From assembly GCF_009712035.1 (NCBI RefSeq), contig NZ_VILB01000013.1, positions 664,426-728,425 on the forward strand: a DNA stretch of 64,000 nucleotides. The letters are read 5' to 3'. Numbering within the stretch: position 1 is the stretch's first letter; each line of letters opens with the position of its first letter. The position numbers were made by a program, and so were the translations under genes. The DNA comes from Anabaena sp. UHCC 0187 (GTDB lineage Bacteria > Cyanobacteriota > Cyanobacteriia > Cyanobacteriales > Nostocaceae). This document shows positions 1-64,000 of the stretch, one piece after another. The notes beneath the pieces are model-generated. The model worked only from the letters and a program-made list of their open reading frames with translations. It was not told the DNA's origin and did no database searches.

Positions 1-161
1 GGTATGATCTTGACTCCATCGTCCATACAGGAGAAGAATATTTACAAGCTTTAGCAGAACATCGTTATAAAGGAGATGTAGAACGGGCAGCCAGACAAAT
101 GATTACTGATTTTCGCAAAGGATTTTTAGGGAATATCTCCTTAGAATTACCAAAAATTTAA
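1..161 (+). CDS. ylqF: Ribosome biogenesis GTPase YlqF/RbgA, C-terminal end only
   Basis: The window opens inside this gene: 52 codons remain, read from base 3 to the TAA at 159-161. The peptide contains GDVERAARQ followed by DFRKG, the conserved C-terminal tail of the YlqF/RbgA family, circularly permuted GTPases that help mature the large ribosomal subunit in the cytoplasm. The GTP-binding motifs lie outside the window, so activity cannot be judged. The gene ends normally, with about 200 bases of non-coding DNA before the next gene. Assignment rests on this short tail alone. Confidence 0.72.
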   Translation, partial: YDLDSIVHTGEEYLQALAEHRYKGDVERAARQMITDFRKGFLGNISLELPKI

Positions 162-368
162 CCGTTAATTTGTATCCGCATTTATCCGCGCTGTGCAGAT
201 TTTCAATATTACCATTGTTATTCCCCAGGAAAAGCGAAATTGCAAATGTCTCTTGTCTCCTTTTATATTCGCCAGGGATACGGATAATCTAGGATTTGGC
301 ATAACATAGCCTTTTTATCTATTTTGTAGCTTTGCGCCCCTAGCTTCCAGTCTGAATGTATAACACTC

Positions 369-57370: not shown

Positions 57371-58984
57371 TTAGAAACTAAAAGTTGTTCGGAGAACACC
57401 AATGGTAATCATGTCGCTATTCGAGCTATGTCTTGGCTCAAATATTAAAATTACACCAGGAGTAATATTAAGATTATCTGACATTCGATAACGATAGAAA
57501 GCTTCTACATGAGTAGTAGTTCCTGGTTGTCCTCCCGCATTACCAAGAGAATCTTTGAGAATACCCGGCAAATTATTACCTGTTGGTAAATCACTGCTGA
57601 CAATTTTAGGAGGTTGTCCTACATAAATTCCCCCCAAATTTCCTTTTCCCAATAAATCAGGGAAATTGAGAAAAGCCATCCAATTATTAGTTTCTATACT
57701 CCCTGATTGTCCCGGTATGTGAGAAGTCGTAAAACCACCCCAACCACCAATTGTAAACTTTGGATTAACCTGCCAAGATGCAGTAGCACCAAAAGCATCA
57801 GTTGTCAGAGGACTATTACCTGTAGGTGTATAAGCCAATAAATCATCACCAATTCCAGTTCCTAAAAATCCTGTAGTTGAGTAGGAATTAATATAATTTA
57901 GTGCTAAATCAATGTTATTAGTAGGAGCAATATTTAATTGCACTCCGGTGGCATTTCCCCCATTAAATAATCCGGCATTTTGGCTACTATCGGCGGGTTT
58001 ATTTGCTGTATAAACTGCTTGTAAACTAATTCGTTTATTCATTTGCCAATCAAATCCCAAACCACCTGTACCATTACCAATTGCTAAAATTGGGTTACGT
58101 TGAGCAAAGGCAGAAATGGGACCTTTACCTGCACTTTCTATGCGGTTTGCTCCTCGAAAAGTGTTGATAGGATTAACCCCTGCTGGCCCAACTATTACTG
58201 CTACTTTATCACCTACTAAAAACCGATAATTGAGGTCAGTTAAAACTAAGCTATTATCTGTATTACCTTCATAAGCCAATCGGGTATCATTAGTTATTCG
58301 TGGGGCATTGAAACTAGCTGTACCCCCATTACCAGCTTGTAATCCTGTTAGTAAAAAGCTGCGATTTTTAAATTGGGTAAGTAGTGTTAGTTGTAGATTA
58401 CTAATAACGTTGATTTTTGTCCCGTTATCTGTTGTTTCTTTAATGCCATCTTTGGGTGATAAATCTGCACTATTTTCACTCCGTCCCTGAATACCAAAAA
58501 TTGCTTGTCCAAATAGTTTGGTAGTTGTCGAAAATTGATTTGCTTCTAATGTTGTTGTTTTTGCCTCTAAAGTATCTATTCGTCCCCGGAGTGTGGCTAA
58601 TTCGGTTGTAAATTCTTCTGTAAGTTTTTGTAATTTGATAAAATCTTCTTTTGTGACTGCGTTACTGGTGCTTGTAGCTATCAATTCATTAACTCTATCC
58701 AAACAAGCATTTAACCCAGCAGCAAATTCATAGCGCGTTAAAGCTCGATTTCCTCGAAAAGTTCCATTGGGATATCCAGCAATGCAAGCATATCGTTCTA
58801 CTAGAGATTGTAAAGCCTGAAATGCCCAATCTGTGGGTTCTACATCTCTTAATTGAGAAACTGATGTAACTTGTTCTATCTCTAATGAATCAACATTTTC
58901 GGCATTAGCTATAGCATGACTAAATAAGGCATAAGTTAAATTAACTACAGATACCAGTAATATTCTTGTTATTAACGTTATCAT
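57371..58984 (-). CDS. Iron-uptake porin (SLH domain plus OprB-type barrel)
   Basis: 537 aa from ATG 58984. After a signal sequence (about 1-28) comes an SLH domain (DVEPTDWAFQALQSLVERY ... GYPNGTFRGNRALTRYEFA), a short coiled coil (LATLRGRIDTLEAKTTTLEA) and a large C-terminal beta-barrel of the cyanobacterial SomA/SomB porin family. SLH ties the barrel to the wall. The final residue is F, the barrel-assembly signal. These porins pass iron and other inorganic ions. Confidence 0.9.
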   Translation of the reverse strand: MITLITRILLVSVVNLTYALFSHAIANAENVDSLEIEQVTSVSQLRDVEPTDWAFQALQSLVERYACIAGYPNGTFRGNRALTRYEFAAGLNACLDRVNELIATSTSNAVTKEDFIKLQKLTEEFTTELATLRGRIDTLEAKTTTLEANQFSTTTKLFGQAIFGIQGRSENSADLSPKDGIKETTDNGTKINVISNLQLTLLTQFKNRSFLLTGLQAGNGGTASFNAPRITNDTRLAYEGNTDNSLVLTDLNYRFLVGDKVAVIVGPAGVNPINTFRGANRIESAGKGPISAFAQRNPILAIGNGTGGLGFDWQMNKRISLQAVYTANKPADSSQNAGLFNGGNATGVQLNIAPTNNIDLALNYINSYSTTGFLGTGIGDDLLAYTPTGNSPLTTDAFGATASWQVNPKFTIGGWGGFTTSHIPGQSGSIETNNWMAFLNFPDLLGKGNLGGIYVGQPPKIVSSDLPTGNNLPGILKDSLGNAGGQPGTTTHVEAFYRYRMSDNLNITPGVILIFEPRHSSNSDMITIGVLRTTFSF

Positions 58985-59156
58985 CTTTGCTTGCACACCA
59001 CATATTAATAAGTGATGATATATTGATATTTTTATTTTCGCAATATCTATGCAATATCAGAGACAAAATAGATAACTTTGGTTGTTTTTGCCTTGAAGCA
59101 ACCAGAAACAATTAAGCTATGATGAAGTTAATTTATATTATTTTTGTATACTTTTT

Positions 59157-59173
59157 GCGGGCATTATGCCCGC
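59157..59173 (-). terminator. GCGGGC palindrome, terminator-like
   Basis: GCGGGCATTATGCCCGC is a perfect palindrome. On the minus strand it is followed by AAAAAG and on the plus strand preceded by CTTTTT, so it could end transcription of the broken gene just to its right or act as a bidirectional stop. Confidence 0.45.
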
Positions 59174-59184
59174 ATTACATATTT

Positions 59185-59571
59185 TTACTGATGAGATTCT
59201 AACCAGTTCAACAAATCCTCAATAGCTGTAAAATCTAGCAATGCTTCACCGAGGGATTCTAACTGATTTAAAGAAAGAGTTTGAATTTTTTTCCTAATTT
59301 CTTCTGGTAAATTTCCTACCCGTTTTTGTAGTTGTCGAACCACAAGATTTTGCTCACCTTCTTGTTTACCTTCTTGTTTACCTTCTGCTATTCCTCGCTC
59401 GTAGCCAATGCGCTCACCTGTAGTAATATAAGTCATAGTTCGCTCCTGTTCAAATTGTTTAAAATCTTGCCAAAAGTCCGCTTCTAATGCCTTTGGTAAC
59501 ATCATAACCCAGTCTATAAAGCGGTAAAGGTTACGAATATCCTTTTCTTGCAATCCTTGTTCATAAAATGC
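59185..59571 (-). pseudogene. C-terminal remnant of a Rpn/PD-(D/E)XK family gene
   Basis: Only the last about 125 codons resemble the cyanobacterial Rpn-type/DUF4351 proteins: EKDIRNLYRFIDWVMMLP, TYITTGERIGYERG, a GKQEGKQEGEQ stretch and a C-terminal LPEEIRKKIQTLSLNQLESLGEALLDF. The nuclease-containing N-terminus is missing. The frame continues upstream to 59706 but as unrelated residues that overlap the methyltransferase start. So the gene is truncated at 5' and probably dead, with the restriction-modification module sitting at the break. Confidence 0.72.
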
Positions 59572-59692
59572 CGTGCCGTCAATGGCACAATCTTTCACTA
59601 TGTGTAGGCCTTTACAAGAACTGATACCAAAAATATGTCGTTTTGATATTTTAGGATTATAGTTATAGAAGCAACTCTTAGTGCGTCTGACA

Positions 59693-60679
59693 ATGGTTCT
59701 TCCCAATCCACTATATACTACAGACTGCGGTGCGGCTTATCTTGGTGATTCCCTACAATTGCTGGATCAATTGGAATCTGACTCAATAGATTTAGTGCTG
59801 ACATCACCACCTTTTGCCTTGCAACGCAAAAAGGCTTATGGCAATGTAGAGCAGGAAGATTATGTTGATTGGTTGCTTGAGTTTTCCAAAAAAGTTTATC
59901 GAGTTCTGAATTCAACTGGTAGTTTCGTACTTGATTTAGGTGGAGCTTATGAAAGTAAACGTCCAGTTCGCTCTCTCTATAACTATCGGGTTTTAATTAA
60001 ACTTTGTGATGAATTGGGATTTAGACTGGCTGAAGAATTTTTTTGGTATAACCCAGCTAAACTACCTTCACCAATTGAGTGGGTTAATAAGCGAAAAATT
60101 CGAGCAAAGGACTCTGTAAATACCGTCTGGTGGCTCTCAAAAACTGATCATCCTAAAGCAAATGTTAGTAATGTTTTAGTACCTTACTCTGAGCGAATGA
60201 AGAAGCTACAGGCAGATCCTCAAAAATACTATACACCGAAAGAAAGACCTTCAGGACATGATATCAGTAAGAATTTTGCTACTGATAATGGTGGTGCTAT
60301 ACCATCAAATTTATTAGAGATTGCAAATACTGAAAGTAATTCTAGTTATATTCAATTATGTAAATCTATTTCCATACCCCCTCATCCAGCGAGATTTCCT
60401 CAAAAGTTGCCAATGTTTTTCATTAAATTTTTGACTGATCCTGGAGATAAAGTTGTAGATATATTTGCAGGCTCAAATACTACAGGTTTTGTAGCTGAAC
60501 AGCTAGAAAGAAGTTGGATGGCTTTTGAAAAAGAAGCATCTTATTTAGCATCTTCAGCTTTCCGGTTTCTAGATAAATCTCAAAGCTCGAAGGAGGCTCT
60601 GACTCTTTATGAATGTCTTGTTACTCAAAAAGAATCTGTTTGTTTAACTACTTCAAAGCAATTAGCTCTGAAATTATGA
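59693..60679 (+). CDS. N4-cytosine methyltransferase, M.PvuII-like
   Basis: 328 aa from ATG 59693 (a GTG at 59681 is also in frame). Motif IV TSPPF (37-41) comes before motif I (DIFAGSNTTG, from D256), the beta-class order. From SPPFALQRKKAYGN through NPAKLPSPIEWVNKRKIRAKD to the HPARFPQKLP region the chain matches what I recall of M.PvuII closely. It should methylate cytosine N4 in CAGCTG and so protect against the adjoining nuclease. The two genes are convergent with 35 bases between. In PvuII itself they are divergent. Confidence 0.92.
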   Translation: MVLPNPLYTTDCGAAYLGDSLQLLDQLESDSIDLVLTSPPFALQRKKAYGNVEQEDYVDWLLEFSKKVYRVLNSTGSFVLDLGGAYESKRPVRSLYNYRVLIKLCDELGFRLAEEFFWYNPAKLPSPIEWVNKRKIRAKDSVNTVWWLSKTDHPKANVSNVLVPYSERMKKLQADPQKYYTPKERPSGHDISKNFATDNGGAIPSNLLEIANTESNSSYIQLCKSISIPPHPARFPQKLPMFFIKFLTDPGDKVVDIFAGSNTTGFVAEQLERSWMAFEKEASYLASSAFRFLDKSQSSKEALTLYECLVTQKESVCLTTSKQLALKL

Positions 60680-60714
60680 AGGTTACTTCAAATTGGCAAA
60701 TTTCCTGGGATTGT

Positions 60715-61530
60715 TTATTCATTCTGTTTAGGATAAACCAACTCACCTTCTTTTTCTATTAAACTTAAAGGGATTTTAGGGTTATTAATAGATTCCATTC
60801 CTCCACGTATTCTAGATTCCCAGTAACTGAACTTAGTCTCAAGTGAAGTAGGGTCAACTCTGTATATAGCTTTTAATACTATTCCTTCATACACAGCAAT
60901 GTACCAAGCTTTTACAGCACGATATTTGGCGAGGATATCAAGGTTAAGATGATGATTGGTGGTGACACTTTTACTTAAAAGTTTATTAATTGTTTTTAAT
61001 TCATATTCATTTTTTTCTGCATCAATTGCATCATTGCCTTCACGTCCAGGTGATATCCGCAAACCAAGCAAGATTAAAACTTGAAGAACTTTCCCTCCAT
61101 TGTCTTGAAAAACATCATTAATACCATACTCGTTTGCCAGACTCTGTAATTCCTGAATAGCCCCAAGTGCTGTCTGTAATCGTTCTAAATCTGAACGGCG
61201 CTCTTTAGTTGTATTAACTGCTTCCCTAACAGGTTCAACAAGAGAAGGAAGAACTACCGGAGTTTGTAATTCAGTGAGAAAGTTTGTACTGGTATCTGTT
61301 TGGGGTGTGACATTCATTAAGTATGCTACTGACACTTTCAGGGCTTCAGCAATATCTAAAATTGTTTCAAAAGACGGAGCGCGTTCACCTCGTTCTATGT
61401 AGCTAATATGCTCAACGGATTTATCAATATCCTCTGCCAACTGCTCTTGTGTAATACCTCTTTCTTTGCGAAGGGCTTGGACTCTATCACCAAAAAGCTG
61501 TTTAGCTTCTTTATACCTTTCAAAACTCAT
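60715..61530 (-). CDS. Fusion of Xre-type controller domain and PvuII-like restriction endonuclease
   Basis: 271 aa. Residues about 13-72 are an Xre/Cro helix-turn-helix (RVQALRKERGITQEQLAEDI, HISYIERGERAPS), as in C proteins of restriction systems. A linker (75-120) leads to a PvuII domain (121-268). D143 (QDNGGK), D167 (GREGND), E177 and K179 (EYELK) have exactly the spacing of PvuII D34/D58/E68/K70. H193/H194 and N249/N250 align with the PvuII residues that read CAGCTG (H84/H85, N140/N141, from memory). It should be a self-regulating CAGCTG endonuclease. ATG 61530 is well placed, and two operator-like repeats lie upstream. Confidence 0.92.
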   Translation of the reverse strand: MSFERYKEAKQLFGDRVQALRKERGITQEQLAEDIDKSVEHISYIERGERAPSFETILDIAEALKVSVAYLMNVTPQTDTSTNFLTELQTPVVLPSLVEPVREAVNTTKERRSDLERLQTALGAIQELQSLANEYGINDVFQDNGGKVLQVLILLGLRISPGREGNDAIDAEKNEYELKTINKLLSKSVTTNHHLNLDILAKYRAVKAWYIAVYEGIVLKAIYRVDPTSLETKFSYWESRIRGGMESINNPKIPLSLIEKEGELVYPKQNE

Positions 61531-61538
61531 AAAAAATC

Positions 61539-61608
61539 AAAACGAACTAAAAGTACGTCTTGAATCTTATACAAAGCATCAAAATATAAAAACGAACTAA
61601 AAGTACGT
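61539..61608 (-). promoter_or_regulatory. Two C-box-like operators upstream of the controller-endonuclease gene
   Basis: The 20-base sequence AAAACGAACTAAAAGTACGT is present at 61539-61558 and, identically, at 61589-61608. Each contains a near-palindrome ACGAACT-AAA-AGTACGT, whose ACT-N3-AGT core matches the C-box half-site rule of controller proteins. Between them, on the minus strand, is TATAAG (a -10 candidate near 61568). The far box overlaps the -35 zone and the near box lies between the -10 and the gene, the layout for activation and repression by one protein. Confidence 0.7.
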
Positions 61609-61756
61609 TTATGCTTAGAGTTCAATTAACTACCTAAATTGGGTTAGTATTTGAACAAATTTTATTTACTACTTCCTTAATTCTGAAAGTTACAGAATAA
61701 GTATCTCAGATAATATTAGGTTTATTTAATCCTAGAAAAGCCTAATTTACCTAATT

Positions 61757-62812
61757 TCAACAACAAGCATAGGTGTACAAAATCTTAGAAAAATCCAACA
61801 GTTTCAGTGCAGAAGGCTGAATAAAAAAGTTACCAACTCCCTCATCTCCCCACATAATTGAATTCTCATCATCTGAGTTCATTTGCAATAGCAGAAAATC
61901 ATAACCTTCCTCCTCCTGCAAATCTGCACGATCATCATTTTGCACAAATGCCGGATATCCTCCTAAACAGTGTCCTCCTAATAATTCCTCATATTTTTCT
62001 TCATACTCATTGAGAAAATCATCTACAAGTTCTTCTAAAGAATTTTCCTGTGCTTTAGTGAGATTACTTTGTTGAAAGATGGTAAAATGGCTTTTAACTA
62101 AGGATCTAAACCGATAATCTGATGCACTCATAGGAGTTGATTTAATAGCGAAATTTAAAGCCAGACAGTCTACTAATGGTAAACCTATTCCTGGAGGTAA
62201 AAAATCAAAATCATCTAAGAGATTATCAATATTCAAATCTGGTTCAGGAAAGTAAAGAACTCGAAAAGTTGTTTGTTTTAATTGCGGATATTCTTCAATT
62301 CCAAAGGCTGTTTCACCTGATGCTTCAATATAAAACTGAAGTATGCCTTTTTCTGGTAAATCTTCTAATTTAGGAGTTTCTGAAAAGTTGATTTGCGCTA
62401 AAAGATGCAAAGGAGTACCATCTGGTGCTTCAGGATAGGTCGTATTTTTAGGAAGGTAAGGTAAACCACCAAATTTACTTTGCCATAAGGTAGTTTCTGT
62501 TGTTAAAGATGGGGTAATTTCTATAGAAGGTTTGATAATTGCATTGGCAAATTCATCTATCTGATTTTTTAATTCTAAGAACATTCCATACAATTCATCT
62601 GGAGTAAAATCTTTGTTATTTTCATCTACGGTCACAGATTCGATATCATACCAACCATGTGTGAGTAATTCTTGAATACTTTCATTAAAAAAAGCTTCGG
62701 CTTCTGCTTCAGAAGAGAATTTATGCAGTTCTTGATAATGGGTAACATTGCAGCCGTCTAGATGAATGGACGTTCTCAGGGAACTTAATCTAAATATTTT
62801 ATTGGATTTCAT
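61757..62812 (-). CDS. YwqG-like DUF1963 protein
   Basis: 351 aa, soluble. A short WGR-like N-terminal stretch (RTSIHLDGCNVTHYQELHKF) is followed by the DUF1963 core: SKFGGLPYLPKNTTYP, LHLLAQINFSE, GILQFYIE and LGGYPAFVQND. The family has no defined activity. It lies beyond the operator region of the restriction system on the same strand. A functional link with that system is not supported. Confidence 0.85.
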   Translation of the reverse strand: MKSNKIFRLSSLRTSIHLDGCNVTHYQELHKFSSEAEAEAFFNESIQELLTHGWYDIESVTVDENNKDFTPDELYGMFLELKNQIDEFANAIIKPSIEITPSLTTETTLWQSKFGGLPYLPKNTTYPEAPDGTPLHLLAQINFSETPKLEDLPEKGILQFYIEASGETAFGIEEYPQLKQTTFRVLYFPEPDLNIDNLLDDFDFLPPGIGLPLVDCLALNFAIKSTPMSASDYRFRSLVKSHFTIFQQSNLTKAQENSLEELVDDFLNEYEEKYEELLGGHCLGGYPAFVQNDDRADLQEEEGYDFLLLQMNSDDENSIMWGDEGVGNFFIQPSALKLLDFSKILYTYACC

Positions 62813-62881
62813 GATAATTAACCTTAGATGTGATAATGAATGATAGAAATATAAGCTAAAAAAAATTCGTAATTGATAATT

Positions 62882-62919
62882 CTTAAATGAGGAATTACAA
62901 ATTACGAATTATGAATTAT
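62882..62919. repeat. Short degenerate heptamer run
   Basis: Units GGAATTACAAATTACGAATT and so on, period 7, lie between the argD stop codon and the DUF1963 gene. Same class as the other STRR arrays. Confidence 0.6.
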
Positions 62920-64000
62920 GCTGTAACCTTAGCTAATGCTTTTTCTACAGCTTCTAATGCTTGTTTGATTTCTGCCTCTGTGACAATAAGAGGAGGAACA
63001 AACCGCACGACTTTAGGCCCTGCGGGAACAAGTAATAAACCTTCTTCCATAGCAGCTTTCACAACTTCAGCAGCAGTTAAAGGAATATCGGCTTTGATTT
63101 CCATACCGCTGATTAAACCCCAACCGCGCACTTCTGAGATATGCTGAGGATATTGACGAGCGATCGCTCTTAATCCTTCTCTCAAATGTGCGCCCTGTTC
63201 TGTGACATTCTCTAAAATATTCTCTTTTTCCAAAGTCTCACAAACACTCAGCGCCACACCACAGACAAAGGGATTACCGCCAAATGTACTCGCGTGTTCT
63301 CCTGGTTGGAAAATATCGCAGAATTTCTTACTCATCATCGCACCGATGGGAATACCACCGCCCAAACCTTTCGCACTGGTGAAAATATCTGGTTCTACTC
63401 CCAAATGTTCATAACCCCATAATTTGCCACTGCGTCCCATACCCACTTGCACTTCGTCGAAAATCAACAAAATGCCGGTTTCGTCGCAAATTTCCCGTAA
63501 TCGCTTAAAGTAGGCAACATTCCCAGGACGAACTCCACCTTCTCCCTGCAATGGTTCAATTAAAATTGCCCCGACCCGATAATTACCTTCATCTAACTCA
63601 GTAACAGCGGCTTCCACTGCCCTAATATCGTTGTAATTGACATAGTGGAAACCAGGAACTAAAGGATCAAAATGCTTTTGATATTTTGGTTGTCCAGTCG
63701 CAGTCACCGTGGCTAAAGTCCGTCCGTGAAAACTGGCATGGGCAGTTAAAATGATCGGGTGGGCAATTTCTAGGACAGTGTGGGCATATTTCCGCGCTAG
63801 TTTAATTGCTGCTTCGTTGGCTTCAGCACCAGAATTACAGAAAAATACTCTATCTGCACAGGAATGATTAACAATCCATTTAGCTAATTCACCCTGTTCA
63901 GGAATATAGTACAAATTAGAAACATGATGCAATTTCTGGATTTGTCTAGTTACAGCCTCTACCATTGCTGGATGGGCGTGTCCTAGAGTACAAGTGGCAA
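62916..64000 (-). CDS. argD: Acetylornithine aminotransferase (5' end beyond the window)
   Basis: The reading frame runs off the right edge; 361 codons are visible, continuous from ATCTLGHAHPAMVEAV at the edge. Class III PLP transaminase: FFCNSGAEANEAAIKLARKY, LLIFDEVQVGMGRSGKLW and the PLP lysine in TSAKGLGGGIPIGAMM. It makes N-acetylornithine in arginine synthesis, the step before ArgJ (also in this window). The C-terminus is normal. Confidence 0.95.
   Translation of the reverse strand, partial: ATCTLGHAHPAMVEAVTRQIQKLHHVSNLYYIPEQGELAKWIVNHSCADRVFFCNSGAEANEAAIKLARKYAHTVLEIAHPIILTAHASFHGRTLATVTATGQPKYQKHFDPLVPGFHYVNYNDIRAVEAAVTELDEGNYRVGAILIEPLQGEGGVRPGNVAYFKRLREICDETGILLIFDEVQVGMGRSGKLWGYEHLGVEPDIFTSAKGLGGGIPIGAMMSKKFCDIFQPGEHASTFGGNPFVCGVALSVCETLEKENILENVTEQGAHLREGLRAIARQYPQHISEVRGWGLISGMEIKADIPLTAAEVVKAAMEEGLLLVPAGPKVVRFVPPLIVTEAEIKQALEAVEKALAKVTA

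Follow-up and report, generated by a model that had tools for sequence, protein, structure and literature searches.

The 64,000-nucleotide stretch of the Anabaena sp. UHCC 0187 genome analysed here (the window) encodes, with a probability of about 0.8, a chromosomal type II restriction-modification (R-M) system of the PvuII kind in which the C-type regulator (C) and the endonuclease (R) are joined in one chain, and in which start-up activation would be followed by repression through two predicted operators. The fusion and its cyanobacterial branch are not new; they were published in 2013 by Liang & Blumenthal, whose account covers five PvuII-type C-REase fusions, three of them cyanobacterial and carrying an extra linker (PMC3850674), and bears out the preliminary description of this DNA, which stated that controller-endonuclease fusions had been reported. 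C-REase fusions are also mentioned in passages of a 2015 paper (PMC4824078) and a 2025 review (PMC12707154). Added here are an order-wide census of the fusions and a conserved layout of two palindromes, which is specific and testable.

The fusion gene and its protein

The CR fusion gene is located on the minus strand (60715..61530), where a single frame of 271 residues runs from an ATG at 61530 to a stop codon ending at 60715. The preliminary description had an Xre helix-turn-helix (HTH) continuing in frame into a PvuII domain; its coordinates proved exact, no stop codon lies between the two domains, and both are matched by Pfam. The HTH_3 domain occupies residues 18-71 (61318..61479, minus strand; Pfam 6e-18, PADLOC Control_protein 6.1e-11), and the endonuclease domain residues 113-266 (60733..61194, minus strand; Endonuc-PvuII, PF09225, 3.7e-81), with a score of 271.1 bits against a curated cut-off of 25 and all 155 profile positions covered (1-155). 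A linker separates them as described, although its extent of residues 75-120 was too generous, the domain edges restricting it to the 38 residues 75-112 (61195..61308, minus strand). When the protein was compared with the PDB using phmmer, the best matches were to R.PvuII (3ksk, 3.5e-90; 1eyu, 4.5e-44), and the HTH matched C.BclI, C.AhdI and C.Csp231I weakly, among general Xre domains. Residues D143, E164, D167, E177, K179, H193, H194 and Y203 of the fusion correspond to D34, E55, D58, E68, K70, H84, H85 and Y94 of R.PvuII, and all eight are identical in the 20 aligned fusions. Catalytic roles belong to these R.PvuII positions, including D58, E68, K70, H84 and H85. The position of H83 of R.PvuII is taken by Asn in the window fusion and in two others. 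By homology, the predicted target of the endonuclease is CAGCTG.

A sequence error is an unlikely source of the joined frame: of the 31 genomes of the order that are positive for PvuII, 16 have C and R in an uninterrupted frame, linker length varies only between 37 and 38 residues among all 20 aligned fusions, and the Ka/Ks ratio of the linker lies below 1 in each of 11 pairs. The ratios for these pairs range from 0.07 to 0.31 for C, from 0.07 to 0.71 for the linker and from 0.02 to 0.16 for R, and all three parts of the fusions are under purifying selection. Across 18 rows (the 20 without L050, which has a frameshift in C, and L013), the linker is the least conserved part with a mean identity of 0.58, as compared to 0.66 for C and 0.77 for R, and 20 of the 67 HTH positions are invariant.

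The identity of the HTH as a controller is less evident from its closest models. Against PADLOC, HTH_VI (1.1e-13) and capH (2.4e-13) score higher than Control_protein, and the C-protein model PDLC03665 gives 40.4 bits for the fusion C domain versus 88.7 for C.PvuII. Compared directly, the C domain scores 29.5 bits against C.PvuII and 45.0, 37.5 and 37.3 bits against three other regulators of the genus. That the fused HTH is an ordinary Xre domain was considered, and this view is weakened by the surroundings of its three best non-fused matches in the genus, which adjoin methyltransferase or ScaI-type R-M genes: L021 lies beside a C5-methyltransferase fragment, and L022 and L031 lie in ScaI-type R-M loci. 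The fused HTH is classed here as C-like on the basis of its context, operator core and expected function, and not as a close relative of C.PvuII. The first part of the PADLOC model PDLC03536 (237 positions) aligns with C.PvuII (7-68) and its last part with the R domain of the window (66-231), so that the fusion seems to be represented in a defence database already.

The partner methyltransferase and the probable insertion site

An N4-cytosine methyltransferase of 332 aa resembling M.PvuII is encoded on the plus strand (59681..60679; GTG at 59681, with ATG at 59693 also possible). It matches M.PvuII (1boo) over residues 9-314 with an E value of 2.1e-132, as well as the Pfam family N6_N4_Mtase, and would probably share the specificity of the fusion. 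The two genes are convergent, with their stop codons ending at 60679 and 60715. In L054, L056-L061 and L050 the methyltransferase gene is instead divergent and upstream of the fusion, as opposed to convergent and downstream in the branch of the window; the linker and the palindrome pair are the same in both arrangements.

On the minus strand at 59185-59706 the window retains the C-terminal part only of an Rpn-like DUF4351 gene. Two other genomes of the genus (G064 and G048) encode an intact 315-aa DUF4351 protein between the same neighbours, at the place of the R-M system in the window, and because the gene is kept intact there the R-M system seems to have entered at this gene.

Distribution and origin of the fusions

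A single fusion copy is present in the genome of UHCC 0187, and intact fusions occur in 3 of 16 genomes of the genus, with a remnant in one further genome (G151). PvuII-domain matches were found in 7 of 386 genomes sampled across the phylum and in 31 of 388 sampled across the order. The search for HTH-PvuII fusions among cyanobacterial genomes, with the 31 positive genomes of the order sorted by their reading frames, yielded 16 intact fusions (L013 among them, although an ATG is missing there from the expected start), seven separate R genes (L047, L048, L049, L051, L053, L055 and L062) and eight damaged or fragmentary copies (L015, L050, L063, L064, L065, L066 and L067, plus a match of 27 positions in G444). 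In G151 the remnant (L094, 3146-3598) has lost the C part and the start of R, and the methyltransferase frame beside it is intact; this locus is possibly an orphan methyltransferase in the making.

In a tree of R domains, built without L074, the near-duplicate L045 and the broken rows (L015, L016 and L063-L067), the 20 fusions from cyanobacteria fall into a single clade (100/100). PvuII clusters with the seven cyanobacterial genes that encode R separately, and on that side also lie L068 and L069, the two fusions from Acinetobacter plasmids; a long-branch warning applies to L072 and L073. Because the Acinetobacter fusions fall outside the cyanobacterial fusion clade, the fusion appears to have arisen at least twice in this set. 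A similar inference of repeated origin was drawn from other members in the 2013 account (PMC3850674). The C-like and R parts on an Aeromonas veronii plasmid (L070, 2947-3300) share a frame but have stop codons between them. Relatives were absent from viral contigs in the search made. Five phage records (H30-H34) associated with Roseobacter/Rhodobacter-type hosts encode PvuII-type nuclease domains of 41-45% identity, the fused HTH region being absent from these matches.

Candidate operator palindromes and promoter layout

The region upstream of the fusion gene at 61539-61608, which the preliminary description had named as the fragment to test for binding, contains two identical 17-bp palindromes. 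The distal one, ACGAACTAAAAGTACGT (61592..61608), is the proposed activating operator, and its centre lies 31 bp before a proposed -10 hexamer, TAAGAT (61564..61569, minus strand). The proximal one (61542..61558), 50 bp away, is the proposed repressing operator at the transcription start, which is estimated to lie near 61557. A symmetrical pair of candidate operators is thus present upstream of the gene, but the classical 15-bp adjacency is absent, the sites being 50 bp apart instead. For the palindrome pattern with at most one mismatch, 0.37 matches are expected, and two matches arose in 6 of 100 shuffles. The exact pattern occurs at three places in the 5.1-Mb genome, two of which are the proposed fusion operators, compared to two occurrences of a reversed control pattern (one strand). 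No RNA family reached the Rfam gathering thresholds in 58500-63500.

The palindromes share an ACTnnnAGT core, and their arrangement recurs with the fusion gene. A free search of 23 fused loci, in which a site had to match 9 or all 10 of the specified bases, recovered pairs in 19, with a spacing of 50-52 bp in every case, and such a pair appeared in 0 of 11500 shuffled upstream regions. Among the remaining four loci, L050 and L059 have one site each, L063 has none, and in L065 ACTnnnAGT cores occur 52 bp apart. In the 21 aligned loci (without L063 and L065), which are related and whose counts are therefore not independent events, the best pair 40-62 bp apart carries 17-20 of 20 specified bases and is spaced by 50 bp in eight, 51 bp in five and 52 bp in eight. 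All but two of these 21 related loci (19, the exceptions being L005 and L064) have a TANNAT hexamer that begins 22 nt beyond the distal palindrome; base composition gives such a hexamer a chance of 0.0135 per position. The centre of the distal palindrome is therefore 31 bp away from the -10 hexamer in these loci, a distance measured directly in the window. The spacing differences of 1-2 bp fall between the -10 hexamer and the proximal palindrome, as would be expected if activation requires a rigid geometry and repression does not.

Among the loci with separate genes, the 15-bp C-box pair is one of the three best pairs in 9 of 12 (with ties in L047, L071 and L073), under a score that slightly favoured GTAG between the boxes; it is not among the three best in L055, L062 and L070.

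The layout in the fused loci is read here as a predicted activating site kept in the O_L place and a predicted repressing site moved from the O_R place onto the transcription start, an arrangement which would fit class II-type activation and repression by roadblock or occlusion. A tentative explanation, to which slightly less than even odds are given, is that joining the nuclease to the regulator made a new design of the switch necessary. In classical C systems O_L and O_R, 15 bp apart, are occupied by two adjacent C dimers; in the cyanobacterial fusions the activating site would have stayed fixed relative to the -10 hexamer, and the repressing site would have been relocated to 50-52 bp from the activating one (approximately five helical turns), over the start, since two fusion dimers bearing nuclease domains could not sit side by side. 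A bolder form of this proposal would place both predicted sites on one face of the helix, where a fusion oligomer could bridge them. A literature search of limited depth turned up no subsequent publication that deals with operators of cyanobacterial fusions.

Proposed working of the system and alternative explanations

In the proposed scheme, the little fusion protein made early would bind the distal palindrome, in the place of the C.PvuII O_L, and activate the promoter. As the fusion accumulates, it would also fill the proximal palindrome over the transcription start and shut the promoter down, and the delay would let the methyltransferase protect the chromosome first. The R domains would form a homodimer as in PvuII. 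Every regulator molecule would also be a nuclease, and hence the C:R ratio would be fixed at 1:1. The suggestion that each fusion molecule also controls the gene encoding it finds support in the precedent of the NsoJS138I fusion and in the conserved layout of palindromes and -10 hexamer. The further suggestion of the preliminary description, that cutting may be coupled to a DNA-bound state, is a conjecture towards which these data are neutral. As reported in the 2013 account, the NsoJS138I fusion has REase activity with PvuII specificity and raised a promoter reporter 23-fold, and a single polypeptide with both activities is there demonstrated for NsoJS138I only (PMC3850674).

Fusion removes the separate tuning of regulator and nuclease, and with such tuning impossible these systems would show, as a natural experiment, to what extent the timing switch of C proteins can persist when the ratio is fixed at 1:1. 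How the domains of a fusion pair, with C and R dimerising together, in turn or in chains, was a question raised by the authors of the 2013 account (PMC3850674), and the palindrome layout may offer a concrete answer as to how DNA is engaged by a single chain that combines a dimeric regulator with a dimeric nuclease.

The endonuclease might also, or mainly, be produced as a separate polypeptide by internal initiation or proteolysis in the linker, the fusion being only a precursor. The low conservation of the linker would be compatible with this, as would the ATG codons within the frame: an ATG at position 72, inside the C domain, is found in 12 of the 20 fusions, and seven of the eight rows lacking it (one of which has TTG there) carry one at position 122, within the R domain. 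However, the 20 rows do not share any single start codon, which speaks against the internal start that the preliminary description had named as evidence against a single chain, and the linker is fixed in length and under purifying selection. Among the 14 bases preceding ATG72 in the window there is no site of the AGGA/GGAG type, a weak indication in cyanobacteria. According to the 2013 account, western blots of NsoJS138I showed no sign of a product other than the full-length protein under the conditions tested (PMC3850674). Separate production of the endonuclease is considered improbable here. It is even more doubtful that the N-terminal HTH has ceased to regulate and merely adds DNA binding or stability, with the palindromes bound by another protein or by none. 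Its score below C.PvuII on the C-protein models would be in keeping with such a loss, but the invariant positions and the low Ka/Ks of the HTH argue against it, as does the palindrome pair, which accompanies the fusion gene in different families and keeps a constant distance to a -10-like hexamer.

The damaged or fragmentary copies in eight of the 31 positive genomes, and the locus of G151 with its intact methyltransferase and truncated fusion, raise the prospect of a decaying system that preserves the methyltransferase alone, next to a fusion without activity. Within the window, however, the frame, the catalytic positions, the operators and the partner gene are all intact, and decay is given very little credence for this locus. 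The frequency of the predicted target bears weakly on activity. CAGCTG is absent from the window (0 versus 9.75 expected) and occurs 13 times in the 5.1-Mb genome, and the three genomes with intact fusions rank 1, 2 and 5 of 16 in CAGCTG per Mb, a result equalled or undercut by 4 of 560 sets of three genomes when the close kinship of the three is ignored; for the control CTGCAG the same genomes have a rank sum of 26, and 308 of 560 sets are as low. The depletion is nevertheless a weak sign of activity, because few copies of the site occur anywhere in the genus (13-145 per genome, whether or not the fusion is present), the three genomes are related and many palindromes are avoided, both within the window, where many others are absent, and in the genus. 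The absence of CAGCTG as strong proof of activity was accordingly rejected. All 16 genomes of the genus are also strongly depleted in the non-palindromic GAGCTG, which occurs 11-72 times per strand, versus 275-452 times for the reversed control.

Comparison with known systems

A single-chain regulator-endonuclease under self-control, the reading preferred here, has its nearest counterparts in Asp90I (Anabaena sp.), Gsp7428I (Gloeocapsa) and Oni7112I (Oscillatoria nigro-viridis), for which the 2013 account gives the same C-linker-R chain, with approximately 25 more linker residues than in the Mru and Nso fusions, and, for the Asp and Gsp fusions, a convergent methyltransferase as in the window (PMC3850674). 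An upstream-shifted C box is noted there (PMC3850674); anchored on the -10 hexamer, as done here, the distal box instead takes the usual O_L place and the proximal box is the displaced one. CR.NsoJS138I of Niabella soli is likewise a C-REase fusion with a PvuII-type domain, but is described without the cyanobacterial linker (PMC3850674).

The Acinetobacter plasmid fusions L068 and L069 also have an HTH in frame with a PvuII domain. They differ from the window fusion in having no cyanobacterial-type linker and in the grouping of their R domains with the separate-gene set, the methyltransferase of L068 being divergent, and on the R tree they represent a separate fusion event. Upstream of both, C-box-like sequences are repeated directly at a distance of 56-57 bp, together with an inverted repeat, a hint that wide operator spacing may recur with fusion; these copies were not counted as support for the spacing idea, as their regulator may have another specificity.

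PvuII itself, from plasmid pPvu1 of Proteus vulgaris (L071), is approximately 50% identical in its R domain and 60% in its methyltransferase. The distance from the O_L centre to the -10 hexamer is 31 bp, as for the distal palindrome in the window, and the PvuII -10 hexamer, CATTAT, sits 13-8 bp before the start codon; by count on the sequence, the arrangement in L048 and L049 is the same. In PvuII the O_L and O_R sites are 15 bp apart, the methyltransferase gene is divergent and the C-dependent transcript is leaderless, beginning at the C start codon as described in PMC2997769. The contrast drawn in the preliminary description with the separate, overlapping pvuIIC and pvuIIR genes stands, the two functions being encoded in the window by one uninterrupted frame.
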